Origin: Polytrichum commune
Taxonomy: Eukaryota; Streptophyta; Polytrichopsida; Polytrichales; Polytrichaceae
Direction of reading: 5' to 3'
Length of the DNA: 64,000 nt
NCBI GenBank assembly: GCA_950295325.1
Contig: OX485804.1
Coordinates: 42,408,001 to 42,472,000 of the forward strand
Position numbers and translations under genes: made by a program
Shown here: piece by piece, positions 1 to 27,225 of the stretch
Layout of the letters: each line of letters begins with the position of its first letter
Numbering within the stretch: the stretch's first letter is position 1
Notes under the pieces: model-generated
The model's input: the letters and a program-made list of their open reading frames with translations, nothing else
Told to the model about the DNA's origin: nothing
The model's database searches: none

Positions 1-2521
1 CTGTCCTAATGCTGCTTGTGGGGGACCGGGGGGGGGGTATCTAATGTATGTGCATTTTGTGGGGGTGTATGTTATGCCTGTTGAGGGTGGTTTATTTGTG
101 TTGTGGGTGTTGGTGGGGTAGGGAATACTATTGAGGCTTAATGAAGGGCTTCTTTGATAGTTTTAGGTATGTGCTTATATGTGGTTTGAAATTCTTTTGG
201 TGTAAGTATGGCTTTAGTATTTGGGTTCTAGATTTGTGGTAGTGTGGTGATGCCATACATGTATAATTTGTCTAGATATTTTTGGGTTTGATTTTGGAAT
301 TTTCCATGAGATTGTCGTAATTTGTGTTGGTTCTCCATGTTTTTTGTAGTGGGGTTTTTGTAATGGGGAATGTGCGATTCGCTGTGGTGACGTGTATTTC
401 ATATTCTCTTTCTAGAAGAGATAGTATTTTGGCTATGGGTGATCGTATACACGATTATTGTTTGAGTTTAGGGAGGTGAAGTGAGCCTCCGTATTTGGCC
501 ACTATATGCTTGGCTAGTCCTTGGTAGATCATGCGTAATTGTCCTGGGTCATTAAGGGCATGTATTAATTGTTGTCCTATGCAACATATGTAGTCTGGTA
601 GAAGTGAGGTTGCATTAATGCCAAAGTTTTCATGGGGGAGGTGGGTGAGGATGTTGGCAGTGCTTTTGGGCATATTGTATATTTTTTTGGTTAGTTTACT
701 GATGATCTTGTCTAGTTTCTTGATGTTTGGTTTGGAGAATGGAACGGCGTAGTAGGCATATGCGATTCGGGGTTTGATAACAATGTTTAAAATTTTAATT
801 TTTTGTGTGAGGCTAGCCGGTGAGTTGATTAGTAGTTGGCTTTGTTGTTTGACCTTCTTGAGTGTTGTTTCTTTTTGTATGTTCCATTTGAGTGATGGGG
901 TTAGGTGTATTCTTAGGTATATGTATGGTTTATTTTGGGTGAGGGTAGGGAAGTTTTAAGAGTTGTAAGTGATATTTTGTGACTGGATGTATGCTTTAAA
1001 GGTAGTGGATTTGAATTTGGATTTGTTGGGACAACCCGTGATTATACATTTTGAGAGGTTAAAGTCCATGTGTGACCATTATGCATGTTTATGGAGTTTG
1101 GTTATTTATGGTTGTATGTGTTGTATGTTGTCTATGATAATTGCTAGGTCATCTGCATGTGTTGTTGTAGTACATGTTGAGGGAAGTGTATTAAAGTGGT
1201 ATCTCATGTCATCTTTTTTTAGCCATCTTAAGAGGGGTTTTAGAAAAATAATAAATAGATACGGGCTAAGGATGTCTCTTTGTATTGTTCCTTGGCTGAT
1301 TTCAATGGGGGATGTTGTTCCAAAGTGACTACCTGTGAAGGATATAGTAAAAAATTTGTATATATTTCCGACAATTTCTATTGCGTCCATGGGGTAGCCA
1401 AGGTCCTCCATGATGGCTAGAAATCTTGTATGATTTATAAATTCGAAAGCATTCCTAAAGTCAATGTATGTTAGGTATATGTCTTTTGTGGTAAGTCTTG
1501 CATTTTCCAAAGTTGCTATGATCATTTGGATTTGTCGTGATGTGTTATGTTGTGGACATAATCCTTCTTGGCTAAAGTATAATAATCTATGTTGTTTCCC
1601 ATAACTTGTAAGAAATGTCGTTAAGGTGCTAGTATATAGTTTATAGATTGTGTTGGCTAATGCAATTGGTCTGTAATTGCTTAAGTGCGTCGGATCATCT
1701 TTCTTGTGTAGTAGAATGATTTTGCTATGTTTCCAGTAGTATGGGTTTGATCTTTGTTTGTAGCAATGTTTAAAGAAGACGAAGATGAGGTCTTGCCATG
1801 GTAGTGGTAGTACTTTAATTATGTTGTTTGGGATGTTGTCGAGCCCGGGGGTTTTACCTTTGGTTAGTCATTTGATGTAGCCATCGTAGATTTCTTTGGT
1901 GAATTGTCCGCATATTTGTGCCGTTGGGGGGGCTCTTTTATCTAGTATAATGCCTTGATGTGTGTGCCAAGGGTATTTACGTACTACACACATGCATGTA
2001 TTAGGGTGGTCCGTGACATCTTCGCATAAAGGTGTTTGTCTTTAGAAAGTTGTTTTCTGGGAGTGGTATATTCCTCTGGTGACCTCCTTGGGTGTGGTGC
2101 TGATATGGCCTAGTGGATTTCGTAAGCAGTTAAGCGTGCTATTGGTTGTGGGGTGGAATTTTTTTTTGTGGATTGTCTTAGGTTTGATATTTAGTAGTGC
2201 TCTGTATTTTGTGATGGTTGCTTTGTAGTTTAATGTAGTTTGTTTAGTGATGATTTTGTGGGCTTCGGTCTTGGCGGTTTTCTCGATGTTGGCTAGTTCT
2301 TCTATCCATGCACGCAATTCTGTGGGGTTAATAGGTGGAGGTGGGATGTGGGGGGTATGTTCACATTCATACCAATATTTAGATATGGGCGTATTTTTTC
2401 TTTCTTTTTCTTGGTCCCTAGCTTGCATCATGTTGGATTGAAGGAGAACCGATTGTAGCAACCAAGCTATCACTCTAGTACTCGCATATGTTTGGCCGGA
2501 TGGGCAAGACTTGAGCTCCAT
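1..2521 (-). mobile_element. Decayed LINE reverse transcriptase, cut by the window edge
   Basis: Read on the minus strand from 2521 down, three overlapping frames together give a reverse-transcriptase domain. The leader is an open frame at 2042-2521. Finger motifs GKTPGLDNIPN and NYRPIAL lie at about 1850-1660. The palm lies at 1106-1525, with a QGTIQRDILSP block and HADDLAIIID, where the usual catalytic box is (Y/F)xDD. After about 1100 the frame breaks repeatedly, although LINE-like text continues to base 1 and presumably beyond. RT would prime reverse transcription at a nicked target. Frameshifts, stops and the Y-to-H change before ADD mark it as dead. The family could be the same RLE-type LINE whose 3' end lies at 43120-44090, but no overlapping part is present here to prove it. 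Confidence 0.8.
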
Positions 2522-11589: not shown

Positions 11590-14203
11590 TATATAGGATA
11601 ACGTTTTGGCGGACACCGACATTGAAAAAGTATCAAAAAATAAATTGGAGAAAATAAATTTCAACTCTGTTATCAATGGCTTGCGAATTTAACCTCTTTC
11701 TAAATGTCGTTTACCTATTCCTATATGCCGCTTACAGCCATTGCCTTTGGTTAGGCCAATTCTAAAATTTGATGTTCAGTTGTTGGAGAATGAATTTCTC
11801 AATGAAAATAGAGAAGTTGATTGTGTCTTGTGTGATTCTATCGTTAACGATCGTGAGAGAATTTATGTGTAACAGAAGACAAATATAGTTATTAGGATCT
11901 AATACGGCAACAAGTGAATTATGTTTTTAAGCAGTCACTTTTCCGAGATGAAAATTTGAAGATTTTTAAAGGTAAATTTTTTTGGGTATAAGAGGATATC
12001 CACCGAGTTATAACATGGAGACAACACATAAATAAAGTTCATGCTTATGAGGAAGAATGACATTATAGTGTGGATAGTATATGCCTTAATGCGATAGATG
12101 CGATTGGCGTTCTTTTGGATGCCATGAATGACGTCAATAAGTAAGGCCTTAAGACCATTAATTTGAATTATTTTTTTGGTCAAATGATTTTTTTTTGTCA
12201 AATGAAATCTTATATTTACAAATTTATTTTGTTGAGTGTCAGATCCACAGATAATGATTACATGAAGACCAATTTGGTTCATAAAATCCATCGCATTCGA
12301 AGGTTTGCGTCTTTGAAGCTACAGAATTTTTAAAATCTTTTGTTATATGAGGATTATGCTAAGTGCGAGAAGAACCCCCATTGATTACATGGTATCCTCT
12401 TACTGCAGCATTTTTTGCAGCTTTCATCCCTAGGGAGTGCACTGTTCAAGTACTGTATTTATACACGTGGGTGCACAAAAGGGGTATTATTTAAAACAAG
12501 CATGTACAAAATGTACGTACATAAGACATATTGTTATTAAGCAAGAAGTAGATATACATGAGGCTATAGAAAAATATATGTAAAGTACGCATTTACGCGT
12601 TTACGCGTTCAAGTCAGACCTGGACCAAGAATCATGTGTTTTTTCATCCACTAAGTAACGACTTTATAACTAAAAATCCATGATTTGATATTATACATAT
12701 AATAGGGCCATATTTTTGAATTTCCAAACATTTGTACACATGTTATATATAATTTTTGTATTTGTTTTTGGACCCTTGTGTACGTATGGAAATGTATTTT
12801 GAAGCAATGAGAGTATTTGTAAGTATATTGCTTGATTTTAGCAAAAATAAAATGTATACAGGGGTATTTTAATAAGGGACATGCACGCACGTGATGTTTG
12901 GTTTTAATGAATAGTGCACTCCCTGAGCTTTCATCTATAAGGTGAGTCTTTAACATCTCAATCTCTATATCAATTTCATGTTTTTACATTAAGTTGTATT
13001 ATTTTTTTTAACTAAAATATTTCAATGTTATTTTCAACGTAATGTTGTGGTAGTATCAAAAGAGGCATGTCGTGAATACATGGACAACACTCCACTGGCC
13101 GAATGATCTCCTAGGCTTGAATTTAAGGCTATAGCAAATGTGGTGAGGAAAACAGTGAGGGCATATAGGTCAAAGGAGTTTGATAACTCCTTGCAGTTGC
13201 AGATCTCACAAATGACGTTGATTTTGTAAAAGAGGTAAGTCTTTATATTATTCGTTTGATTTTTGAAATATGTTTTATTACGTTGCATACTTTATATTCA
13301 ATATTTTTTTCATTGTTTTAAGGTAAATGAACATTAGAGTTCTAATCTAGATCAGAAATGACCTTGGAGGAATTGCAAAAAATTGCAACAACCCCGGTGG
13401 ACGGCAAGTATAAAGTGAAATGATTGAAGTGGTGGAATCAAATCTGATAACACGCGAGGCTTTATTTTTTTTGCCTCCCAATTTTATAGACAATGACCTT
13501 GATTTATGGTTGGTGAAAGCATCATTTTGGGCTTAGGTTTTATTATGAAATGTAATTGTAAATGCATTTATGCTTATAAAAGCATTATAATTCTTATATG
13601 GCGTTTGTATTTGTCAAGATAGTTATTTGATATACCGCTTTATAATTCTTATATAACGTTTGTTTTTGTTAAAATAGTTATTTGACATACCGCTTTATGT
13701 ATGAATTTTAATTTTTAGTTGAAGAAGGGTGCCATCAATGTGTTTCATGGCATTCTACCACAATTGGGTGATGTGGTTTGGGACAACGTCCACTAAATTA
13801 GATATTAAATTAAAAAATGGCGTTGTCTTCTTTGGAACAAAGCGTATACTCTAATATTATGCGGTTCAACACCATTTGCAAAATCCATAATATTGATGAA
13901 GTAACATAAAGGCAAATTGGCAATGAAACGTGTGATATATAGGTATTATGCTATACTTGACTATTTTGAAATAATAAAGTTTAGTTCCATTGGTGATATC
14001 GAACTAAATTTGTTTATTGAATTTGTGTAGGTACCTAACAAGGGAGCTTGAATCCCGGAAAACACTTCCATTGCAAGCATTGCCTTCATTCTTGAACTCA
14101 TGGGTTGACAAGTCAAGTGACCAATGCATATTTTCAGCCTTACAGTTGATATTGTGGACTCATGATTTATTGGTTCATTGTGCATGGTTTATTGAATGTC
14201 TAA
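11590..14203 (+). pseudogene. 5' half of an old ParB-DNA methyltransferase-like gene
   Basis: Conceptual translation follows the younger gene at 23405-25200 exon by exon. 11600-12140 matches the ParB exon, sharing a block around PLSKCRLPIPIC / PLPLVRP and the end DAMNDVNK before a GTAAGG donor. 12250-12941 matches exon 3 (TNLVHKIHRI; WYPLTAAFFAAFIYK, interrupted by a MITE). 13053-13234 and 13360-13540 match exon 4 (VVRKTVRAY; ASFWA). 13717-13900 matches its end (LKKGAINVFHGIL). 14033-14203 matches the start of exon 5. Splice sites are conserved in place. Stops are mostly single transitions, for example CGA to TGA where the younger gene keeps Arg. The 3' half is at 27727-29459, so the gene was split by later insertions. 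Confidence 0.8.
12429..12927. mobile_element. MITE with 8-bp target duplication, inserted in old exon 3
   Basis: Inverted ends CCTAGGGAGTGCACT... and ...AGTGCACTCCCTGAG (18-20 bp, few mismatches) are flanked by an exact 8-bp duplication CTTTCATC at 12421-12428 and 12928-12935. Deleting the 499-bp element plus one duplicate restores an open reading WYPLTAAFFAAFIYK followed by a GTGAGT donor, aligned to exon 3 of the younger gene. The 8-bp duplication and YAGGG ends fit a hAT-type MITE. Confidence 0.85.
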
Positions 14204-15312: not shown

Positions 15313-15322
15313 TAAGATAAGG
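15313..15322 (+). repeat. Left target-site duplication
   Basis: TAAGATAAGG, identical to 27216-27225 directly outside the right end. The match runs on for two more bases (GA) into the element or flank, so the duplication could be read as 9-12 bp. That is within the 8-11 bp usual for Mutator-like elements. Confidence 0.85.
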
Positions 15323-15410
15323 GAGGGAAGCTATCTTATGAGCGATGAGCAGTGAGCGGTGAGCGGTGAGCAGTAACACATGAGCAATGAGCAGTAACAT
15401 ATGAGCAATG
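15323..15410 (+). repeat. Left terminal inverted repeat
   Basis: Reads GAGGGAAGCTATCTTATGAG and then iterates GAGCGATGAGCAGT / GAGCGGTGAGCGGT units and TGAGCAGTAACA. The right end on its minus strand reads GGGGAGTGCTATCTTATGAG followed by the same GAGCGGT series. These short direct subrepeats look like multiple transposase-binding sites. Confidence 0.85.
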
Positions 15411-15531
15411 ATTCCAAACTTAGTAAAGACACACGGGTTTAGGGTACACAACCAAAATTTTGACAAATTAATTGCATATTTTCAATTGTAAATTGCCAAT
15501 ATTTTAAATGAAGCACAAGTGAAAGGGCCCT

Positions 15532-15735
15532 ATTTCCATGGATCATTTAAAACACTTTCAATTCATTGTTGATTTTTATTATAATAATCCAAACCAATAC
15601 ATGTCATTTATTGACATCCTTATACATGTAGTTACAACCAACACTTGCACAACTACTCACATTCCACAACACCAGCAAGTTCAAGTAGGTGCATAACCTC
15701 ATTATACGTACATGTAGGTGCCATAATTGTGAGCC
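15532..15735 (-). repeat. Partial duplicate of the transposase 3' end
   Basis: 15532-15735 repeats 16095-16285, sharing TTGTTGATTTTTATTATAA, ATCCAAACCA and the codons for APTxTYNEVM...LLELAG. The two copies flank a SINE-like insert. Confidence 0.75.
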
Positions 15736-15772
15736 ACTCAAACTGCTCACGGGTTGAATTAAGGCCCATAAT
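15653..15772 (-). CDS. Spare, in-frame terminal exon of the transposase
   Basis: This 40-codon minus-strand exon is preceded by a good acceptor (TTTCATTTGTAG) and reads IMGLNSTREQFEWLTIM, then APTCTYNEVM and LLELAGVVECE, stop. Its second half nearly equals the last 22 residues of the main transposase. The main frame contains a potential donor at 16306 (TGCAAG followed by GTGGAT). Splicing from there into this exon is phase 0, giving a transposase with an alternative tail. It may be the ancestral last exon, a tandem exon duplication, or a piece of a related element fused in by recombination. The open frame is intact. Confidence 0.55.
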   Translation of the reverse strand: MMGLNSTREQFEWLTIMAPTCTYNEVMHLLELAGVVECE

Positions 15773-15833
15773 CTACAAATGAAAGGAAATTAGATATTAG
15801 AAATAGTCAATATGTAGGTAACTACTAGGTTTT

Positions 15834-16035
15834 GAGACATCCGCCTGTGGATGCGAGTTGTGTAAGAGACTGGTATTAGGTCTGTATCAACCCGGGTTCG
15901 AATCCGGTTGGTTACATTGACTGGTGCTATCCCAAATTGAGCTAGTGATAAAGTAGGAATGATCTATAGGCGGATACCAAGAAGACGTTACTACGCGGAT
16001 GTACGTAGAATCTTCTCAATTATTTTTTATTTTTA
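15834..16035 (+). mobile_element. tRNA-derived SINE-like sequence
   Basis: Contains an RNA polymerase III B-box match GGGTTCGAATCC at about 15893-15904 and a weaker A-box-like stretch (ATGCGAGTTGTGTAAGAGAC) about 35-40 bp upstream. The 3' end is AT-rich (ATTATTTTTTATTTTTAG). No acceptor stem or anticodon loop forms a proper tRNA. No clear flanking duplication was found. Confidence 0.5.
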
Positions 16036-16207
16036 GAAACTTGTTATTATTTATCCATGTCAATCAATCAAACCGCTCACGGTTGGGTCGTACTGAATCA
16101 TTTGAAATACTTCCAGCCCATTGTTGATTTTTATTATAAAAATCCAAACCAAAACATGTCATATTTTGACATTCAAATATATGGTACTTAATAGACCATT
16201 TGCAATA

Positions 16208-19200
16208 CTACTCACACTCTACGATACCAGCAAGTTCAAGTAGTCGCATGACCTCGTTATAGGTATATGTAGGTGCATGAATGAACTTATCACTCTCGTA
16301 ATCCACCTTGCACAAAAATCTAAACACATAATAAAGATGTTTACAATACACCCATTTTCCTTTCTTTCCCAATGCATGAGAGGACATTTTCGTGAAATCC
16401 GGGCATGTGCAATGCGGGATGTCGCCAATTGTGACATGGTAGGTGATATCCTGCTTGGAGACAATGTTGATCATCACTCCAAAGCCCGGATAAGGAATGG
16501 CAGTGACCCCAACCACATAGTAACCCTCCATGAGTCCGGCGCTCTCCCATTTGTTTTTGTGATCCGCTAGCGGTGCTGTTGGATTACGACGCACTGTCTT
16601 CCCAAACCTGAATGTAGGGTGGGCGTCCGGGTTTGGTGGCATAGAAAAATGCGAGCGAGGGATGGGAAGAGTTGCGATTGTTGAAAGCCTACGACGAGGG
16701 GACAATGCCTCCCTCTGCTGTAGTTGAAATCCAGCATCTTCAAGTGCCAAAACCTCCTCTCGCGATAGATTGGTACCTATCTTCACCGCCCACGTGTTGG
16801 GTACTATAGGCCAGTCCAACACATATTTCTTCTTACTGCCACTCACACAACGTTTGATGTCGTCAGGGCAAAACCAAAATTCATACTCCACATTGTTGGG
16901 AGAGCGAAATTCCTTCCTGAGCCCTTTGTATGTTGGAGCAGGTGTGCCATGTTTCCCAGTCCCGACTTTGGCATTGCACATAGTCCCTGTGATGGCCTGT
17001 AGTGCCCAACATCGTTTGGCTGAGTTGGGTGGTAATCTTGCAATGTGCCAGTTGGAAGCAAGACAATCAGTCTCTAACACGGATGTAGTATGAGCCACAC
17101 CATGAATTGCAGAACTTAACGATTCCTCTATGCGTTGACGAGTTGCTCGGGTGTTCAGACAGGGAATGGAATAGTTCACTTTGTCGGGTCGATGAGAGTC
17201 ACAATCAGCACCCGGTGGTAGGTTGAGTTTGCGTTTGGTGGAACCAAAGAGCTCTGACCCTTCCAATGCACAATCTCTAGTGTTGACGTCTTCTGCCCCT
17301 GGATAAGACTTCATGGCATCGGCCAACATTTTTGGATCTCCACACCTTGCAGCCGCTTTGAGTTTCAAGGATGCCGAATCAGGACCTTTACCATCAGACC
17401 CCCCTTTCAACCATGTCCGGTAATTTGCAATTTGCATGAAAACACGGATCATGTCGTCCACTGTAGCTTCATATAAACAAGTCATCTTGTTGTCGGACTG
17501 TTGGAGCCATTTGTTGTGTACAGTCTCTGCAAGGTTGCATGTTGGCATTTCCGCACGCTCTTCTATTGTCATATCCTATGAACAACACACAAATACAAGG
17601 ATAAGACAAACATAAGATAGATTATATATTTAGGTTTGGGTCGTTCAACCCAAAATGGCTGCCATGTTTGGGTCGAACGACCCAAACTGCCTACAAGGTT
17701 TGGGTCGAACGACCCAAACTGCCTACAAGGTTTGGGTCGAACGACCTAAACTGTTTGCGTAGTTTGGGTCGTTCGACCCAAAATGGCTGCCACGTTTGGG
17801 TCGAACGACCCAAACTGCCTGCCACATTTGGGTCGTTCGACCCAAACTATTTGTTGTTTGTTGTGTACAGTCTCTGCAAGGTTGCATGTTGGCATTCCCG
17901 TACGCTCTTCTATTGTCATATCCTATGAACAATACAAAAAGACAAAGATAAGAAAAACATAAGATATATTACATTGAATAATGAAGTTTGATATGTACTT
18001 ACAAGTAGCATATGGCCACCCCATTGTCTGTAACGAAAGTGCCAAAATCCCAACCACTCTGAAAGGCCAAGGATGCCTTCCTCGGAGGCAGCTCCAGATG
18101 ACAACCACCAAGAACGAATCACATGGTACTTGGTCTCAGCGTCGTCCATTGTTTTCGCGTCTTTGTAATCCTTGCATATTTGTTTGTGTTGAAATTGCAA
18201 GGATGGTTTGATATATTTTTGGGTCACCTTATCCAAGCTTGCGGACCAATGGAAAAGACATGTACGCTCACGTGCAACCATGGGTAGACTTGGATCACCA
18301 TCCCCGTAAATCGCCCTCACCGCATTCCAATTAGCTTGAGCACTATCAGCCATAAACCCTTTGAAGTTTACGTATGGTACACCGTTTTCTGCCATGACAG
18401 CATTCAAATTTTCCCAAAAAAGAATTTGTGCTGCACCATCTTCAGATTGCATGTCACAACACGCAATAGTCAACACTTTACAATATCGACTGTCGTACAC
18501 ATGGCAAGCCATGGTCGTCCAGTCCTTCAAACGTTTGACATGGTCAAACATAATCCATGAATTCTCCATATCCCCACCGACTTGCATCCTCTTCACAAGC
18601 TCCACACCACTACCTGGAAGGTCTACAGACATCTTGAAAACAAACACTTTGTCCTTTGACTGCCCTGGGAACCGACTACCATGGACGAATTTGAAAGCAG
18701 AGTGGTCTTTGAGCGCCATAATACTATCCATAGTTCCCATTCCACTACGCAAAAAACGCTTTGATCCAGATACAAAGTTACGACAATTTGGAGAGGCAAG
18801 AGTGCTGAATTTGTCCATGACGACCTCTAGGGATGAACCAACCAAGTGATGGCCTTCGACATTTGCGGGAGATTTGAGAAGGTAATCGGCCAAGAATTGT
18901 TTGCTCGCCGCCATAACTATGGCTGAATTTTTTGCTGTGGGTGTTTTCAATACTTCATTTGCAACGCATTGGTATGCCATGTCCAATGATTCACGGCATG
19001 TGCCATTGGCCACAGGGTGATCATGTACACCAAGATGAATGCAAGCCCTGGACATTCCAACGGATGTGGAGTGGATGTATATGATTCGAGCATTACACAA
19101 AGCAATGCACACAGGTGTGGACCGACATACCTTATACTCGACAGTGGACTTAGTAGGGGGAACAACACCCACAACAAATGGGATAGGAGTTGAACCGGCC

Positions 19201-20138
19201 CATTCCGTGTTGTTCCGGAGGCCCCCATTGCGATTCATGTAATCACAGTAGTCATTATGACATTGGAGATGACCAGCACAAGTAGAGCGCCGGAAGGACA
19301 GTCCAAAGTCATTTTGGATATTTGTGGTTTTGGTGGTGCACCAAGGATGACCGTCGCACATTTTGTCCATGCCGTCCATTGAGCGACCATACGTACTTGG
19401 AGCTTTGAGTGCCACAGGATGCAAGAGAAACAAAACATCACCATTAAAAGAAGATGGTAAGTACTTGACTTCACGAACATCTATACTGTCAAAATCAATG
19501 GATGCAAGATCGGACTTTGATCTTTTTCTTGACTTTGTCAGCTTCAAGGCATCAACCATAGTCAACCCTGTAGATGAAGGTGAAGGGTGTAGTGGAGGAC
19601 GTTGAGAAGGTGAGATTTGGGGAACCACCTTGTTGTACATAAGACCGCAAGGGGATTTGGCTACATGTATAGGAAGTTGGGAAGGAGTAGAATGAACACT
19701 TCTAAATGGAAATGGCGATGTGTTTGAAAGATCAACAGATGCACAAATGTCATCTTCTGAATCTGATAGCACAAACACACTATCATCAAGGGGTTCCACC
19801 TTAACAGGTGCGATAGAGGGAATTTGAACTGTGGATGTACCGGATTCGTTTGTCAAAATGACAGTTGAAGCTTGCATCTGAGACTCAGAAAGTCCTATCA
19901 CCCTAAATGAACCAGGTCCTAAGATCCACATAAAACCAACATCAGTTCTATTTTTTGGAACCAAAATCGTTTCATACACCTCTCCATCTGCAGAGTACAT
20001 CTCATGCTCTAAATACACGGTTCCTATCTGGAGGTTGAATCTTAAACTAAGTAAATCCTCTGAAACACTCACATGACCATCATCTTGGAGTGGCAAGATG
20101 AAGGGAACAAAAGATCCATGAGCTCTAATGGTAGCCAT
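16208..20138 (-). CDS. MULE-like transposase with SWIM zinc finger (two exons)
   Basis: Exon 1 is 20138-18003 (712 codons) and exon 2 is 17575-16208 (456 codons with stop); both junctions are canonical (CTT|GTAAGT and TTCATAG|GAT) and in phase, giving 1167 residues with no lesion. A Cys/His-rich region at about residues 255-390 includes CAGHLQCHNDYC and HLGVHDHP. A DDE-type core follows: YDSRYCKVLTIACCD (Asp about 549), GFMADSAQANWNAV (Asp about 598), CLFHW, and a likely Glu near 686. The C-terminal SWIM finger (about 1090-1133) reads CTCPDF...YCKHLYYVF, i.e. CxC...CxH. Such proteins bind element ends and cut and rejoin DNA in the nucleus. It lies within matching terminal repeats, so this is an element gene and not a domesticated FAR1-type factor. 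Confidence 0.85.
17512..17935 (-). repeat. Duplicated intron/exon-2 junction flanking the palindrome cluster
   Basis: About 100 bp spanning the exon-2 start (17512-17620) is repeated at 17845-17945 with few changes, including the acceptor, the DMTIEER start and the CNLAETVHNK codons. The palindrome cluster lies between the two. The upstream duplicate is inside the intron and could act as a decoy acceptor; use of it would lead into stop codons. Confidence 0.8.
17634..17847. repeat. Seven 22-bp palindromes at an exact 32-bp period
   Basis: Sites start at 17634, 17666, 17698, 17730, 17762, 17794 and 17826. Each is GTTTGGGTCG, two A/T bases, then CGACCCAAAC, with rare mismatches, separated by 10-bp spacers such as TGCCTACAAG. 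The array lies inside the transposase intron. A second cluster of the same site lies at 22719-22914. Perfect dyads at about three helical turns suggest sites for a dimeric DNA-binding protein on one face of the helix. Confidence 0.95.
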
Positions 20139-20653
20139 AAAAAATCAAAAGAACATATGAACAACACATCACAAAAATATGGGGTGAATGTTGGTTTTGT
20201 ATAGAGTTGTGTGAGGAAATGAATGAAAATGAAAACGTGTGATACAATAATGGATGGAGATGAAAGCGTGTGATACATAGCATCTAATAATACAGAAGTG
20301 GACATAACACAATAATAGTCAGAGAATATTTACGAGCAAGATATACACAAAATGGCGTCAAATACTAAAAGTATTGGTAGAAAACAAAAATATATATGTG
20401 TGGACTGACGTAGATGTAGAAAGAATTAAAATTGGTTGGAAAAATAAATTATTATGAATAGAACAAAGTAGGTGTCAGAAAATTTTGGCGGATATAACAA
20501 AAATAAACACATAATGACAAACGCGTTGAAATATCTCGCTCATTGAACGCCAATTACAACATGTGATCGTAATATACGCCGGATTTTGTGAGATAGATAC
20601 ATTGGAAGAATAAATGATAGTACCTGATAGAAAACATATCATAGACACCAACG
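20139..20653. promoter_or_regulatory. Divergent intergenic region between the two element genes
   Basis: 515 bp separate the transposase ATG (minus) from the first plus-strand ATG. It contains a direct repeat of GAAAACGTGTGATACA (about 20230) and GAAAGCGTGTGATACA (about 20262). Possible TATA-like stretches exist on both strands but none is compelling. Its role as a bidirectional promoter is inferred from layout only. Confidence 0.5.
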
Positions 20654-20935
20654 ATGGTGGACGATGTAGAAAGAACACCCGTGAGGCTGAAGAGAAGACG
20701 TAGGAAAGCTTTGTATTTCACTTCCGAGAAAAAGAGGTTCAGACTGAGTGTGGGAAAGAAGAATGCAAATAAGGAAGGGAAAAAAAACTTGTTGAGTACG
20801 GTAGAAGAAACTATGAAGACACTGGATTTTGATGCGATGGAGGATGATGAAGGTGCAAAGAGCAAAGAAGATATAGATGATCGTATATCAGAGTCCGAAT
20901 TGAAGACGGGTTCAAAGAAGACGACAAACAAAAAG
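20654..20935 (+). CDS. Candidate first coding exon of the ParB-methyltransferase gene
   Basis: A 94-codon open exon from ATG to an AAAAG|GTAAGT donor. It encodes a lysine/arginine-rich start (VRLKRRRRKALYF, SEKKRFRLSVGKK) and an acidic end, typical of a nuclear-targeted N-terminus. Its phase 0 donor joins in frame to the acceptor at 23191 (TTTGTTTTAG|GAC), nine bases before an ATG. The 2.2-kb intron that would result holds most palindrome arrays. A TATA box at 22553 offers an alternative start that would skip this exon. Confidence 0.55.
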
Positions 20936-20984
20936 GTAAGTCAGTTCAATGTTCACATAATTTGATAGTGCATAAGTTGTAAGT

Positions 20985-21885
20985 TAGGACGGAGAACCTT
21001 GTACGTTCACTCACATATCATGTAGTAGCAATTTATAGAAGTTATAAATTAGAGAGGAAAAAACCTATACGTTAATGCACATGGTATATAACAGAAATTT
21101 AGGAAGGCTAGAAGTCAGGAGGAGAACATTCAGGGTTTATAAGAGCAACATAGGAGGCAAGAAGTTTGGAGGTAAAACCCTATCCGTTAACGCACAAGGT
21201 TTATAAGAGCAACTTAGGGAGGCCAAAAGTTGGGAGCTAAAACCCTGTGCGTTAACGCAGAAGATTTGTAATAGCAACTTAGGAAGGCCAAAAGTTGGGA
21301 GGAGAAACCCTGTGCGTTAACGCACAGGGTTTGTAAGAGCAACTTAGGAGGCAAAAAGTTGGGAGGAAAAACCATGTACGTTAACGCAGAGGGTTTGTAA
21401 GAGCAACTTAGGAGGCAAAAAGTTGGGAGGAAAAACCATGTACGTTAACGCACAGGGTTTGTAAGAGCAACTTAGGAGGCAAAAAGTTGGGAGGAAAAAC
21501 CATGTGCGTTAACGCACATGGTTTGCAAGAGCAACTTAGGAGGCAAAAAGTTGGGAGGAGAAACCATGTGCGTTAACGCACAGGGTTTGCAAGAGCAACT
21601 TAGGAGGCAAAAAGTTGGGAGGAGAAACCATGTGCGTTAACGCACAGGGTTTGCAAGAGCAACTTAGGAGGCAAAAAGTTGGGAGGAGAAACCATGTGCG
21701 TTAACGCACATGGTTTGCAAGAGCAACTTAGGAGGCAAAAAGTTGGGAGGAGAAACCATGTGCGTTAACGCACAGGGTTTGCAAAAACAACTTAGGAGGC
21801 AAAAAGTTGGGAGGAGAAACCCTGTGCATTAACGCACAGGGTTTGTAAGAGCAACTTAGGAAGGCCAAAAGTTGGGAGGTAAAAT
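20985..21885 (+). repeat. 64-bp tandem array, each unit carrying a GTTAAC-centred palindrome
   Basis: GTTAAC centres start at 21186, 21251, 21316, 21380, 21444, 21508, 21572, 21636, 21700, 21764 and (as ATTAAC) 21828, so most steps are exactly 64 bp. Decayed units lie at 21071 and before. Each unit reads CCATGTGCGTTAACGCACAG (or a close variant) and then GGTTTGCAAGAGCAACTTAG plus AGGCAAAAAGTTGGGAGG. The core TGTGCGTTAACGCACA is a perfect dyad. The inner units are most alike, suggesting ongoing homogenisation. Sixty-four is twice the 32-bp period of the other two clusters. Confidence 0.95.
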
Positions 21886-22129
21886 GACTAGGAGAGCCTA
21901 AAAGTAAACAAATATTTATTGTATGAATTTAAATCGATCTTCAGAGCGTAGGAACAAAAAAACCATTCAAAACGGGGTTAGAATGCAAGAAATGAGAAAT
22001 ATGTCTACTCAAGTATTCATGCAATACGTTATAGGAGCTAGAAAATGACACAAAATAGCATAATTTTTTTTTTACCCCGAAACCCAAAATCTACGAGGTC
22101 GCCCAAAACAAGGAAATAGATAGAAGAAT

Positions 22130-22320
22130 GAGAAAAGAAAATGATTTCAAACCAAAACAAAATATAAGAAGATTTTGTAGCTACGGAGATTTAAATAATA
22201 TAGCATATTTTTTATTTATTTTTTGGACCCGATTAGCATTTTTTCCAGATTTTACAAGTTTTGGCAAATCTACCAATTCCAGACAAATTTTCAAAAAATT
22301 TTTTTTTAGCAAATTCAAGT
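22130..22320. other. AT-rich stretch within the large intron
   Basis: No repeat or coding feature seen between the 64-bp array and the inverted-repeat block. Confidence 0.5.
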
Positions 22321-22326
22321 CTCGGC

Positions 22327-22370
22327 CCTGTGCGATTAACGCACAGGCCTTATGCGCTAACGCACAGTGG
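22327..22370. repeat. Two diverged GTTAAC-type palindromes
   Basis: CCTGTGCGATTAACGCACAG and TATGCGCTAACGCACAG are imperfect versions of the 64-bp array core, standing alone without the rest of the unit. Confidence 0.8.
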
Positions 22371-22374
22371 CCTC

Positions 22375-22495
22375 AAAGTTGCCAGCGCAGACCCTGTGCG
22401 TTAACGCACGGGGTCTACTTGCCTAGCTAAAGGCTTCACAAAGTTGGGCAAGTAGACCCTGTGCGTTAACGCATAGGGTCTGCGCTGGCAACTTT
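22375..22495. repeat. 49-bp inverted repeat with palindromic arms
   Basis: Arms 22375-22423 and 22447-22495 are reverse complements with two mismatches, separated by 23 bp. Each arm starts or ends with AAAGTTGCCAGCGCAGACC and holds its own TGTGCGTTAACGCA palindrome, so the block can form either one long hairpin or two short cruciforms. It lies just upstream of a TATA box. Confidence 0.92.
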
Positions 22496-22552
22496 CTAGC
22501 AGCTATGCGGGGCACGAAGAGCCACGCTAAATATGGACGCAGGGACGAGTAG

Positions 22553-22559
22553 TATAAAT
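22553..22559 (+). promoter_or_regulatory. TATA box, likely internal promoter for the ParB-methyltransferase gene
   Basis: TATAAAT is followed about 30 bp later by a pyrimidine-rich stretch (CAGTCTTTTTTCTCTCATC) suited to a plant initiation site, and then by candidate donors at 22641 and 22653 (CAAG|GTTTGT). A short noncoding leader exon could splice to 23192, with translation from the ATG at 23201. Palindromes lie both upstream and downstream, so binding there could control this promoter. Confidence 0.55.
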
Positions 22560-22718
22560 TGCCACACCTTCAAAGCATTCAGTCTTTTTTCTCTCATCTA
22601 TCGGACCAGAGCTCGTCGCTGCAAGCTCTCTCATCTACAGGTGCAGTACAAGGTTTGTTTGTACTTTCGTGATGACTGGGTAATTGCGCATAATTAGGCG
22701 TAAATTACTATCGGCCTG

Positions 22719-22914
22719 GTTTGGGTCGAGCGACCCAAACTGTCGGCCTAGTTTCGCCCTAGTTTGGGTCGAGCGACCCAAACTGTCCGTCTGGTTTAGG
22801 GTCGGTCGACCCAAACTGTCCGTCTAGTTTGGGTCGCTCGACCCAAACTGGCTGTAGGCGGTTTGGGTCGCTCGATCGAAACCGCGTGGACAGTTTCGGT
22901 CGTTCGACCCAAAC
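22719..22914. repeat. Second cluster of the 22-bp palindrome, six copies
   Basis: Sites start at 22719, 22762, 22794, 22827, 22861 and 22893, most 32-34 bp apart, with a broken site near 22751. Half-sites GTTTGGGTCG and CGACCCAAAC match the cluster in the transposase intron, here with GAGC- or GCTC-type centres. They lie between the TATA box at 22553 and the ParB exon. Confidence 0.93.
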
Positions 22915-22951
22915 CTCGCGCCCAAGTTTTGTAGACCTGTAGTTGGACACA

Positions 22952-22981
22952 CAGACCCTGTGCGTTAACGCACAGGGTCTG
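22952..22981. repeat. Perfect 30-bp palindrome
   Basis: The half CAGACCCTGTGCGTT is followed directly by its exact reverse complement. It is the longest perfect version of the GTTAAC-centred site and lies about 240 bp before the ParB exon. Confidence 0.97.
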
Positions 22982-23191
22982 CCCTTGTAGTTTTGGGGTG
23001 AGCGGCCACCCTTATCGTACAATATTTAAAGGTGCAAATGGTAGTGTCTAGAATCATTTTTGTTATTCTTCCTTGTGTTCGTCGTATTCTGTTGTTATTG
23101 TTGTTGCTATTGCTGTTGTTTTTGTAATGTTATTGTTAATGTGTTTCTACTGGTTTTGAAATATTTATGAAACTTATTTCATTTGTTTTAG

Positions 23192-23919
23192 GACCAACCA
23201 ATGGATTTGGAGAGAACGACTGTTATTTCTACTGGTGATGATTCTACAATGCATTCAACTCAAGATCGTCCATCTCAACAAGTTCATGTTCATCAGGACA
23301 TATCGTCAAATCTTCATAATAAGAAAAAGAAAAAAATAAATGAATCTCTCGATAATTTTGACTCGGATGAAGATAATGATGGTGACAATAAAACCTATCA
23401 ATAGAAAGTCTGGGAGCTTACGGACAAGCGAAAGGTTAATTCCACTTCAACAATTTCTTCAATCCGTGCTGGACCGAAATCTCGTTTGCGTGTACCTTTG
23501 TGTCGCATGGTTCCAATGCCTATTGTGCGTCCTGCTTTGAGAGGCGACATCACTAAATTGGAGGCTGACTTTTTCAATGGTTATCGTGATGGTGACCGTG
23601 TGTTTTATCTATCGGCTACCGACTGTAAGGGAAATTTTCAATTTGTAGATGACGAGGTTCGTGCATCTTGGAGCCCAAATTGGCCTCAAGCTAATGCGGT
23701 GTTTGAAACTGAGTTAAATGCCGATCCTTCATTTACATCATACAAGAACAAGATGTTCTTCATATGGGATGGTAATCACAGATTTTTTGCTTGGAAAAGT
23801 TATATTGACCGCTTGCATACCGAAGATTACGAGCGTCATGTCGTTGTGGATTCCATCATTTTGGCGCCCGAGCTTGATGACATTCCAAGTTTGTTGACTG
23901 CTATGCACGACATCAACAA
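23192..23919 (+). CDS. Exon encoding the ParB-like domain
   Basis: After an acidic linker (LDNFDSDEDNDGDNK) and an in-frame TAG at 23402, the exon is open to a GTAATG donor. The frame reads PLCRMVPMPIVRP, then a segment ending MFFIWDGNHRFFAWKSYI, then HVVVDSIILAP and LLTAMHDINK. The DGNHR block followed by Ala and a strand with hydrophobic beta residues is the signature of the ParB/sulfiredoxin fold (the G-x-HR nucleotide-binding loop), and the final N is where ParB families show a conserved lxxxN. ParB proteins bind palindromic sites and use nucleotide to clamp DNA. The old copy at 11700-12140 conserves the same blocks, although its DGNHR box has decayed. Confidence 0.7.
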
Positions 23920-24311
23920 GTAATGTTTTTACTTCTTTATTTTCATTTATTTCTGGTTTGTATTTTATTATTTGAATTATATCATCCTAAATCCATGAAT
24001 TCAATATTTTTTCAAGTCAACAGAAAACTCTCACGTTTCTACCAATTTGGTGCATACTTTGTATCGGATGCAAAGTATTGGCACCATGCCTTTGACTTCT
24101 TTTAAAAAACAACTGGATCCTAGAAGTTATAAGCGATGTGAGGAGAAGTCCGTTGAAACTTGGTATTCTTTGACGCGGCCAATTTTTCTTGATTATATGT
24201 ACAGTGTAAGTTTTTCTAGCATTTCCTACTATGTGTTTAATGTTTATTTATCTTTCATTTAGATCACATCTATATGTACTTATTAATTTTGGATTTTGTT
24301 TGATTTTTCAG

Positions 24312-25667
24312 CAAGAACTTGCCGAGGCTAGCGATATTGCTCTCAACCTTTACAATGAAACCCATCCTCTTGAACGAACTTCAGAAGGAGTTTCTAAAGC
24401 AATGTCCGCAGTTGTCAACAAAAAAACGTGCAATGTTGTCTTCTAGTTTTACAAAACAACTAGCAATTGCTGACATCAATCTCACCCCTGCTTTTCTTGA
24501 AGAAATTAAGCACCATTGGGGTTCATTTTCGGTGCCTGAAATGTTACAAGAGAAACTTCATCGTGTTGCTGTTAGTAATGTGGATCCAGATGTCAAAGTC
24601 GGATGGCTCAAGCTTTGGAATGGCAATAGATTTGACAAAAATGCATTGCATTTCCCGAAATCACCCCTCTCTGATTTTGCACTTGATGATTGGTTATCAA
24701 AGGCTACATATTGGGCACAGTTAGAGAAAAAAGCTATTGAAGAGCTTCAAAGTATTCTTTCATCTCCTCTTCAATTGCCTGCAGATGTGCCTACTCTCTC
24801 CGAATATATCCAAACCTGGAAGTTTGCGGCTTTCAATTCAATATTCTATCGTGAATTCAAAAGCGGAAAAGTAAAAAAACACAACGTTTGGGATGAGCAA
24901 CCGAATATTGATCTTGCTATGAAGCGTGTTCTATAGAGGTACAACTTATTCTTTATTATTTCTTGATATTTTTTCATTACATTTTACTTTTCATTCAATA
25001 TTTGGCTCATAATATTTTTGTGTGTAGGTATTTCCGATATGTTTTGATTCCGCACAAATGCGTTATAGGAGAACCTCGTTTTTTTCCAAATTGGCGTGAC
25101 ACTGGTGCGGAAGACTCATGCATGTTCACTACTGAGATTTGTTTGGATTGGTCGCTCCCACACTATGAGGATTGTGGTTGGTATCTTGATTGTCCTAAGG
25201 ATGCATGTCCGTCAAGTGAGAAGACAATCCGTCAGATAAATGATGCCAAAAATGTAGATCCTCGTGATACTGCAATTTTGCAAGCACAAATTGTGCAGCT
25301 TAAACTTAGAGAGCCAGAACCAAAAGAGACAAAACGTCGTAAGAGAAAACATGTTCCTGAAACCAAAATACAAGGTCAATCGGAAATTTCACAACATGAA
25401 GAATTGCTTGTTCTTTCCAATGATTTGGATAAGAATACACTTGGAGGCGAAAGTTCAAAATCCGGGTGCGATGTATTGAAATTTCATTACTCTAGCACCT
25501 ATGACGCTATTCATCGTGCGCCAACGAATGTTTTGATAAAAGAGTTATTCATACTGAAGAACTTTCTTACGCTCTCTTTTGCTCGATCTACTGCTGTCAA
25601 GAACAAGTCTGAAGGGGTTGAAGTAAGCCCTCCTGAGTGGATCCAATGGCGGGCATTTCTTGAAAAT
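24312..25667 (+). CDS. Middle exons of the fusion gene, function unassigned
   Basis: Exons 24312-24938 and 25028-25667 encode a region conserved with the old copy: ALNLYNETHPLERTSEGVSK, WLKLWNGNRF and WLSKATYWAQL in the first; YFRYVLIPHKC, FFPNWRD and CGWYLDCP in the second, then a basic patch RRKRKH. I recognise no domain. The first exon changes frame in an A7 run near 24420 and ends with TAG at 24934. The second ends SPPEWIQWRAFLEN at a GTAAGT donor, at the same place as the old copy's FEFVKN. Confidence 0.6.
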
Positions 25668-25768
25668 GTAAGTAATCTTCATTTTGTATTTTCTGTAATG
25701 TTCTTACTTTCATTTGGATTTTATTTTGTGTCTTATATTGTGATATGTTGTGGTATTTCAATTCAAAG

Positions 25769-26657
25769 ACAATCGCGAATTTCATGTCATGGGAAGTCCG
25801 ACTCCATTTGCCGTTGACTTGGTTTTTCTGCAATTTCCGGACGGTTTTGACTTCAACCTCTCCAATAGACCTGCTGAAATTCCTCTTTGGAATAAATATG
25901 ACAAGAACTGGATGGTTGCAACAATGTCCTTGTGCAAGTCCATCTTGTCTGATGATGGCGTCCTCATAGTATTTTCTGCTATCGATATGCAAACCAAGAA
26001 GGTTTTTAATTCAACCTTACACAACGGCAACATGAAAGTTCTTAGGACTTTTATTTGCCTCAATTCGTACATGGTGTTCAAGGATCCGGAGTCTCCAACC
26101 TACACCGTAAGTATAACACATCACAATTGTTTCTATTTAATTATTTTGGTGTTATTTGCATTGTATATAGTTTTAATACAATTTACATTTTTTTTGTAGA
26201 CTCCGGCATTTATGGCTCATGTCTTGGTAAGGGATTTTACTACCAAAAAATCCACGAGACAACCAAACTCCACTTTTTTCGGCACTGGATTGAAAAGCAA
26301 AAACTTGCTTTTCAATTTTGTGGATGAAAAAAACACGCTTCTTCAAAAATCGGGAAGACCTTGGAGGGGGCCATATCAAAAATCGCCGCGTTTTTTTCAA
26401 GATCTTATTGAATTGTTTACACCATCGAATGGACGCGTTGTTGATTTGACATGTTCCACTGGAGCATCTATCCTAGCAACACGCGCATGTGGCAGACATC
26501 TTCTTGCATTTGAGGGTGATAATGACATGTTTGAGCACATATTAAAACCGCTTTTGGAAAAGGTTTTGAAAGAGGGGTCATCTAAGGAGAATATACAAGA
26601 TCTCACAAAAGAAGATAATGACCTCTCGGATGAGGAGATGCTTGAATTTGAGTGTGA
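25769..26657 (+). CDS. Exons encoding the DNA methyltransferase-like domain
   Basis: Exon 25769-26106 reads FAVDLVFLQFPDGFDF, then W...WMVATMSLCKSILSDDG and a strand VLIVFSAID, matching the catalytic half of beta-class N6/N4 DNA methyltransferases in order and spacing. At the motif IV position, where (D/N/S)PP(Y/F/W) is usual, it has QFPDG; the old copy has ADLPED. Exon 26200-26657 carries the cofactor half: SPRFFQDLIELFTPSNGR, VVDLTCSTGAS and ACGRHLLAFEGD, i.e. the motif X, I and II pattern. The IV-before-I order is that of the beta class. Loss of a canonical motif IV makes catalysis doubtful; it could be a DNA-binding pseudoenzyme or a divergent enzyme. Confidence 0.7.
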
Positions 26658-27149
26658 GTAAGTTTTGATACAAATTTTTTTTATTCAATTCATTCGTTTC
26701 ATTCAATTCATTGGTTCATTTTTATTTCTTCACATTATTTACATGTTTCATCGATTTGATTTCAGGAATACGATTGGAAAGAGGACATGTCTCCCGTTTT
26801 GGGCACATAGACAATTCCTACGAAGTCCAAGTCGTAGCCCGCGTCTCCCATCATATGCCGAGAATGTTGCAATTGCAATGTTGAATCTCGAAGATTCGGA
26901 TCCAAATGAAGAATCTTGCTATAGTTCCAAAATCAATTCGCAATGCAAAGGTGCTCGAATATATATAGATGACGAGGCAAAAGATAGTTTCATGTCTAGT
27001 GCTACTACTTATGAATAAATTTTTGGACTTCATGTTGTTTATCCTTCTCAACCCTCTTATTACTAAACCCTAAAATCATCATTTTTAAGGCCACAATTCC
27101 ACGGTTATAGGATATTGGTGGCCCTATTACCAAAATTTTCATCTTCCTC

Positions 27150-27215
27150 ACTGCTCATAAGTTACCGCTCATCGCTCACCGCTCATTGCTCACCGCTCAT
27201 AAGATAGCACTCCCC
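27150..27215 (-). repeat. Right terminal inverted repeat of the 12-kb element
   Basis: On the minus strand it begins GGGGAGTGCTATCTTATGAG and continues with GAGCGGTGAGCAATGAGC-type subrepeats and GGTAACTTATGAGC, matching 15323-15410. Confidence 0.88.
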
Positions 27216-27225
27216 TAAGATAAGG
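27216..27225 (+). repeat. Right target-site duplication
   Basis: TAAGATAAGG, identical to 15313-15322. Confidence 0.85.

Follow-up and report, generated by a model that had tools for sequence, protein, structure and literature searches.

The Ectocarpus transposon Sola1-1_Ec32 encodes a ParB-methyltransferase protein of 1,104 aa on the strand opposite to its transposase, and the authors of that study propose self-modification as the function of such cargo (PMC12477816). Similar proteins in green and red algal transposons are on record (Iyer 2011; Petroll 2025, both as summarised in PMC12477816), where the same domain pair forms an accessory gene, a likeness of description. ParB-methyltransferase cargo is as a kind already known from algal transposons, and the statement in a preliminary description of the present locus that nothing comparable had been described does not stand, given these brown, green and red algal examples. 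The moss element reported here resembles Sola1-1_Ec32 in being a DNA transposon with a cargo of approximately 1,100 aa, ParB-like and N4/N6 methyltransferase in kinship and antisense to the transposase. It differs in carrier and host, Sola1-1_Ec32 having a Sola1 transposase and spanning 21.5 kb in a brown alga whereas the moss element is MULE-type and spans 11.9 kb in a land plant, and, when set against the Ectocarpus element by description, in its lost catalytic motif and its palindrome arrays. Bacterial and phage ParB-methyltransferase fusions share the domain order of the cargo, which in comparison has about 400 aa more between the domains, introns and a degenerate catalytic motif. Relatives of DNA-modification enzymes are likewise found among the TE-encoded cytosine methyltransferases (PMC5890265) and as TET/JBP in fungal DNA transposons (PMC12730594), albeit from other enzyme families. 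VANDAL21 of Arabidopsis and its VANC protein again combine a plant MULE-type transposon with an accessory protein, the targets of which form tandem motif arrays in introns and upstream DNA, with some motif sharing with unrelated elements (PMC5735166, PMC10398659), and VANC target number varies between element copies (PMC5735166), as does the number of palindrome sites here. The VANC motifs are same-orientation 8-9-mers, whereas the putative binding sites of the moss element are palindromes of 16-28 bp. To our knowledge VANC has no kinship with ParB proteins or methyltransferases. No land-plant precedent for ParB-methyltransferase transposon cargo was found in the open-access literature, and what is new, as far as that literature shows, is a host among the land plants and a carrier of MULE type, together with the loss of the catalytic motif, the evidence of selection and the palindrome arrays; an algal-type cargo is now seen in a land plant, with a different class of transposase, in more than 100 copies and under clear selection.

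The window analysed (C2:42408001-42472000, 64,000 nucleotides) contains at 15323-27215 a complete DNA transposon of 11.9 kb with two genes, exact boundaries and, in its noncoding arrays, two perfect palindromes termed P1 and P2. Its features, with cargo exon limits as predicted from copy comparison unless otherwise stated, are as follows.

15313-15322, no strand: left target-site duplication TAAGATAAGG, an exact 10-bp repeat present at both flanks
15323-15391, forward strand: left terminal inverted repeat, beginning GAGGGAAGCTATCTTATGAGCG and matching the right end
16208-17575, reverse strand: transposase exon 2, 455 aa, open frame, with a SWIM-like CxCx(n)CxH zinc finger
17576-18002, reverse strand: transposase intron, holding the 32-bp tandem array of P1 (17634-17848)
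18003-20138, reverse strand: transposase exon 1, 712 aa, open frame
20654-20935, forward strand: possible upstream cargo exon, 94 aa, very basic, with a GTAAGT donor and an in-frame splice to 23192
21131-21884, no strand: P2 array between the genes, core TGTGCGTTAACGCACA, 64-bp tandem, 11.7 units
22324-22981, no strand: more P2 palindromes, together with P1 in a second array (22719-22915), within the 5' leader or an intron of the cargo gene
23201-23919, forward strand: cargo exon 1, ParB-like region with WDGNHRFFAW, beginning at an ATG (or at 23192, should the upstream exon be spliced in)
24016-24205, forward strand: cargo exon 2
24312-24938, forward strand: cargo exon 3
25028-25667, forward strand: cargo exon 4
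25762-26106, forward strand: cargo exon 5, methyltransferase-like, with LQFPDG at the position of motif IV
26200-26657, forward strand: cargo exon 6, bearing VVDLTCSTGAS...AFEGDN as motif I (SAM-binding region) of the methyltransferase-like domain, from PF01555, PHROG_67 and hhalign
26766-27018, forward strand: cargo exon 7, carrying the stop codon and the 3' end
27147-27215, reverse strand: right terminal inverted repeat, matching the left end
27216-27225, no strand: right target-site duplication TAAGATAAGG, the same exact repeat

The preliminary description had proposed a single transposon unit with matching ends, a perfect 10-bp duplication and an intact SWIM transposase, and all of this was borne out, as the terminal repeats are identical at 55 of 62 positions (89% over approximately 62 bp, gap-free, E 8e-18 by blastn), the duplication stands at both flanks and the transposase of the window copy is intact, with 1,167 aa in two open exons. 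Eleven copies were compared, comprising the window copy and ten others from the genome (labelled a to j). The ends are common to all ten further copies, which show 92-99% sequence identity, and a perfect 10-bp duplication, the register of which was inspected by eye in copies f, g and h, flanks 10 of the 11 and differs in sequence at every insertion; copy c, the sole exception, is without one. Shared ends and high identity combined with differing duplications point to separate insertions of one young family, and the family has been recently active. Throughout the 408-Mb genome, which all genome-wide counts cover, the terminal pattern gave 286 exact ends as compared to none for a reversed-pattern control. 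An exon-by-exon search of this genome yielded about 14 NAC-domain genes, a family that marks land plants, and so small a number suggests a bryophyte. The first 100 listed ends yielded 28 pairs, mostly spanning 10.5-13.5 kb, and cargo was present inside 27 of these, in agreement with the earlier view of the gene as transposon cargo: across the genome it travels with the terminal repeats.

Transposase exon 1 has 63 scored genomic copies at 88-100% identity, and the SWIM exon has 93 at 92-100%, with a dN/dS of 0.058. The SWIM-like finger reads CTCPDF...YCKH and scores 15.7 bits, below the profile cut-off of 19.6. The 10-bp duplication falls in the 8-11-bp range of MULEs and terminal inverted repeats are present, and on such sequence features the element is classified as a Mutator-like (MULE-type) DNA transposon. 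Pfam, NCBIfam and PDB sequence searches of the region returned no match to the MULE transposase DDE domain (PF10551), and as the label rests on the duplication, the terminal repeats and the SWIM finger with the DDE domain unrecognised, it is given as 'MULE-type' with no named clade. From what is known of such families, the transposase would be expected to mobilise the element.

The cargo model comprises seven exons and 1,076 aa on the strand opposite to the transposase, in divergent orientation. Splice sites were set from the comparison of one subfamily (copies i and j) with another (the remaining copies), between which exons diverge little and the upstream introns strongly, substitutions show a third-position bias and splice sites are canonical; judged by this comparison the cargo is a real gene. 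In copies a and j its frame is fully open with every splice site canonical, and copy j has an intact transposase as well. The divergent cargo gene described previously is thus real and intact elsewhere, but the window copy is broken by five disabling changes, none of which is in the family consensus: a stop at codon 68 (23402, exon 1), one additional A at 24420 (exon 3), a stop near 24932 at the end of exon 3, and splice acceptors altered from AG to AA at exon 2 and exon 5. An initial splice model, which broke the frame in exon 2 and again in exon 5, was discarded when the copy comparison identified these acceptor mutations as specific to the window. The window element thus pairs a dead cargo with a transposase that looks alive.

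The cargo is integral to the transposon family. Divergent cargo lies at most 25 kb from 73 of the 93 scored SWIM-exon copies, same-strand cargo being found for 1 of the 93, and for four other copies PF01555 detected a related methyltransferase exon, partly above the Pfam cut-off; the sister subfamilies are known here by coordinates and scores. Between subfamilies the whole cargo has a dN/dS of 0.12 and is thus under purifying selection; the ParB-like region taken separately gave 0.084, and exons 5-7, where changes are few, gave 0.21. Single cargo copies compared with their own group consensus gave 0.16-1.07, mostly a near-neutral 0.3-1.07, and the overall pattern is that of a gene on which the lineage depends, while copies that have died decay. 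The persistence of many copies with broken cargo shows that the cargo is dispensable in cis for each copy, a point against the docking role preferred below. The window also contains, at 11651-12372, a diverged ParB-like exon relic without a methyltransferase. This relic, when used as a query, matched ParB-like exons at no fewer than 150 places, mostly with 36-67% identity and in many cases with an open frame, so that the cargo has radiated into several lineages, and two of these matches (C2:68607271 and C2:1340867) adjoin transposase copies that had previously seemed cargo-free. The viral and prokaryote sequence collections contained no close relative of the cargo, and thus in those collections no sign of a recent transfer from viruses or prokaryotes.

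The C-terminal part of the cargo matches PHROG_67 (E 4e-8, profile) and Pfam PF01555 (E 1.1e-4, 22.6 bits, slightly below the cut-off of 26.7), and a related exon from a sister subfamily of the same transposon family exceeds the PF01555 cut-off. In hhalign comparisons against a phage set this domain scored 94-96%, as compared to 0.1-0.3% for other cargo regions; the best phage and plasmid matches are weak and nearly all annotated as DNA methylases, and motif IV precedes motif I, as in the beta class. To judge from these matches the domain is a relative of the beta-class N6/N4 DNA methyltransferases, as had been claimed, but the catalytic DPPY is lost, the site reading QFPD in all 11 copies. 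The alignment at motif IV sets VDLVFLQFPDG against VDLILTDLPYG and IDAIICDPPYG, the cargo showing LQFPDG where active enzymes show (T/C)DPPYG and departing from the consensus (D/N/S)PP(Y/F/W), while the SAM-binding region is partly conserved. A genome-wide search confined to DPPY/F found the pattern in its usual context at no methyltransferase place on the plant chromosomes, and otherwise only on contig C12 and at four unrelated places. Contig C12 is small, carries the pattern in an intronless ParB-methyltransferase frame of 501 aa, and is likely bacterial contamination. The presence of QFPD in place of DPPY suggests an inactive member of the family, and the domain is probably a pseudo-enzyme in which the fold is present and catalysis is doubtful. 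AlphaFold on the methyltransferase region, with one intron read through, gave a pLDDT of 41, and PDB sequence searches returned no relevant match.

For the N-terminal half, the ParB-like domain proposed earlier shows the core motif DG(N/E)(H/R)R as FFIWDGNHRFFAW, a single motif within WDGNHRFFAW, but has no Pfam match to PF02195 (ParB N-terminal domain), and a single-sequence AlphaFold prediction of the exon reached a pLDDT of 36. An hhalign comparison gave P 9e-5 over 16 columns with templates picked for that motif, and in a genome search with PF02195 the chromosomal copies gave no match, the only matches being on the small contigs C10, C12 and C23. We term this half 'ParB-like', the assignment of a ParB fold, which rests on one motif, being unproven.

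P1 is TTTGGGTCG-NN-CGACCCAAA, located in the transposase intron and the cargo leader. Inverted-repeat matches with arms of at least 9 bp number 17 in the element and 3 in the other 52 kb of the window, as compared to 0.25 in shuffles. Over 222 units of P1 the arms are 84-100% conserved and the 2-bp centre and flanks mostly 34-64%. Such a sharply bounded dyad with a free centre is the footprint expected of a dimeric DNA-binding protein. No clear excess of covariation over independence was observed between palindrome arms save at a few positions, and the symmetry therefore appears to be kept mainly through conservation. Genome-wide P1 occurs 9,731 times (reversed control 0; fewer than 0.01 expected by chance from base counting), and P2 was found as 502 exact matches to CTGTGCGTTAACGCACAG (reversed control 0). 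Every one of the P2 sites listed, all on chromosome C1, lies in or beside cargo elements of the transposon family. P1 is also present in a 78-bp repeat with an unrelated spacer flanking copy j, and approximately four fifths of the P1 sites listed fall in other clusters of about 10 kb that may be unconnected with this cargo; P1 is accordingly not confined to the transposon family and could serve another protein.

The reading that we prefer, while rating it a little short of even, is that the cargo would be a DNA-docking accessory factor which acts on the palindromes and marks family members as self, against silencing or in aid of the transposase. The cargo protein would dock as a dimer on the palindrome arrays in the intron and intergenic DNA of the element, such docking would mark family members as self, and this self-marking would most likely counter host silencing, as VANC does for VANDAL, or alternatively assist the transposase, with the methyltransferase fold acting as a DNA- or SAM-binding scaffold and no methylation taking place. 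That the cargo binds the palindromes we infer by analogy, ParB proteins being binders of palindromic sites (ParB-parS), and a role in hiding from silencing or in self-recognition is plausible, the palindrome arrays lending it weight. We regard as unlikely the bolder form in which, as in ParB-parS, the ParB/pseudo-methyltransferase protein would spread from thousands of palindromes and shield the family from silencing, with subfamilies evolving different palindromes. It is somewhat unlikely that the palindromes are sites of the transposase or of a host regulator, which they could serve instead, and that the cargo acts via protein contacts; the occurrence of P1 in other repeat families with unrelated spacers speaks for this, whereas P2, among the C1 matches listed, is confined to the transposon family and lies beside cargo.

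As the methylating centre looks dead, the cargo more likely tags element DNA than methylates it, and methylation of the element's own DNA, put first among the functions in the preliminary description, loses its lead. A catalytically active cargo enzyme, marking element DNA chemically by methylation of N6-adenine or N4-cytosine, would be in keeping with the real homology to phage and bacterial enzymes, the partly kept SAM-binding region, the sister-subfamily exon above the Pfam cut-off and the published suggestion for the algal cargo (PMC12477816), but is quite unlikely in view of QFPD in 11 of 11 copies and of a search for DPPY/F that found it at no methyltransferase place on the plant chromosomes. 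With about the same low probability as the spreading ParB-parS-like protein, the cargo may be a MudrB-like transposition helper that binds element DNA jointly with the transposase, helps with integration, with strand capture or with the choice of target, and has no part in silencing. Strict linkage of cargo to transposase argues for such a helper, as does the fact that autonomous MULEs typically have two genes, one of them accessory, while the location of the palindromes in introns and intergenic DNA, away from the termini, argues against it. MULEs often capture genes, and the window cargo copy is broken, yet a passively carried, Pack-MULE-like fragment of a host or bacterial gene is very improbable given the between-subfamily dN/dS, the presence of cargo in nearly all copies and the several ParB-like exon lineages with open frames. 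Should the cargo, as in the reading that we prefer, prove to be an anti-silencing factor, it would represent a second solution besides VANC and unrelated to it. The palindrome arrays offer a directly testable target for a function that has been in question since such genes were first listed.

The frame at 20654-20935 is open in all 11 copies, the copy comparison revealed no third-position bias in it, and it had no transcript support; its use as an extra first exon, which would extend the cargo to approximately 1,173 aa in eight exons, is plausible but unproven.

The cargo gene of the element (23201-27018), which combines a ParB-like region with a C-terminal methyltransferase-like domain, carries about 15 changes specific to the window, four of which are nonsense or splice lesions, whereas the transposase harbours no such window-specific lesion; the share of these lesions among the cargo changes apparently exceeds chance expectation. 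Dozens of genomic copies, forming a sub-lineage, seem to have in common a frameshift in cargo exon 6 at around residue 68, and therefore cargo copies with a broken methyltransferase part seem to have multiplied. One such copy lies on C6 of the assembly:

C6:42629434-42629812, example of the sub-lineage with the exon 6 frameshift

A second, diverged cargo lineage is present in the window as a decayed relic (11651-12372) that lacks the methyltransferase part and is 29-40% identical to the ParB-like region; this relic probably extends to about 14100. ParB and ParB-methyltransferase frames without introns, of 501 and 722 aa, were observed on the small contigs C10, C12 and C23, which are likely assembly contaminants of bacterial or phage origin.

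Clusters of approximately 10 kb that are dense in P1, the perfect palindrome arrayed in the transposase intron and cargo leader, also occur on chromosome C1 with differing spacers (78, 64 and 57 bp), and probably correspond to transposon families distinct from this one that share the P1 site:

C1:616089-626109, P1-dense cluster
C1:1180628-1190830, P1-dense cluster
C1:2115506-2125785, P1-dense cluster

Three further pieces were noted in the window, the last being identified by eye:

15656-15727, short duplicate of the transposase C-terminal end, adjoining the left terminus
17857-17922, short duplicate of the transposase exon 2 start, within the intron
1109-1867, minus strand, fragment of a LINE-type reverse transcriptase
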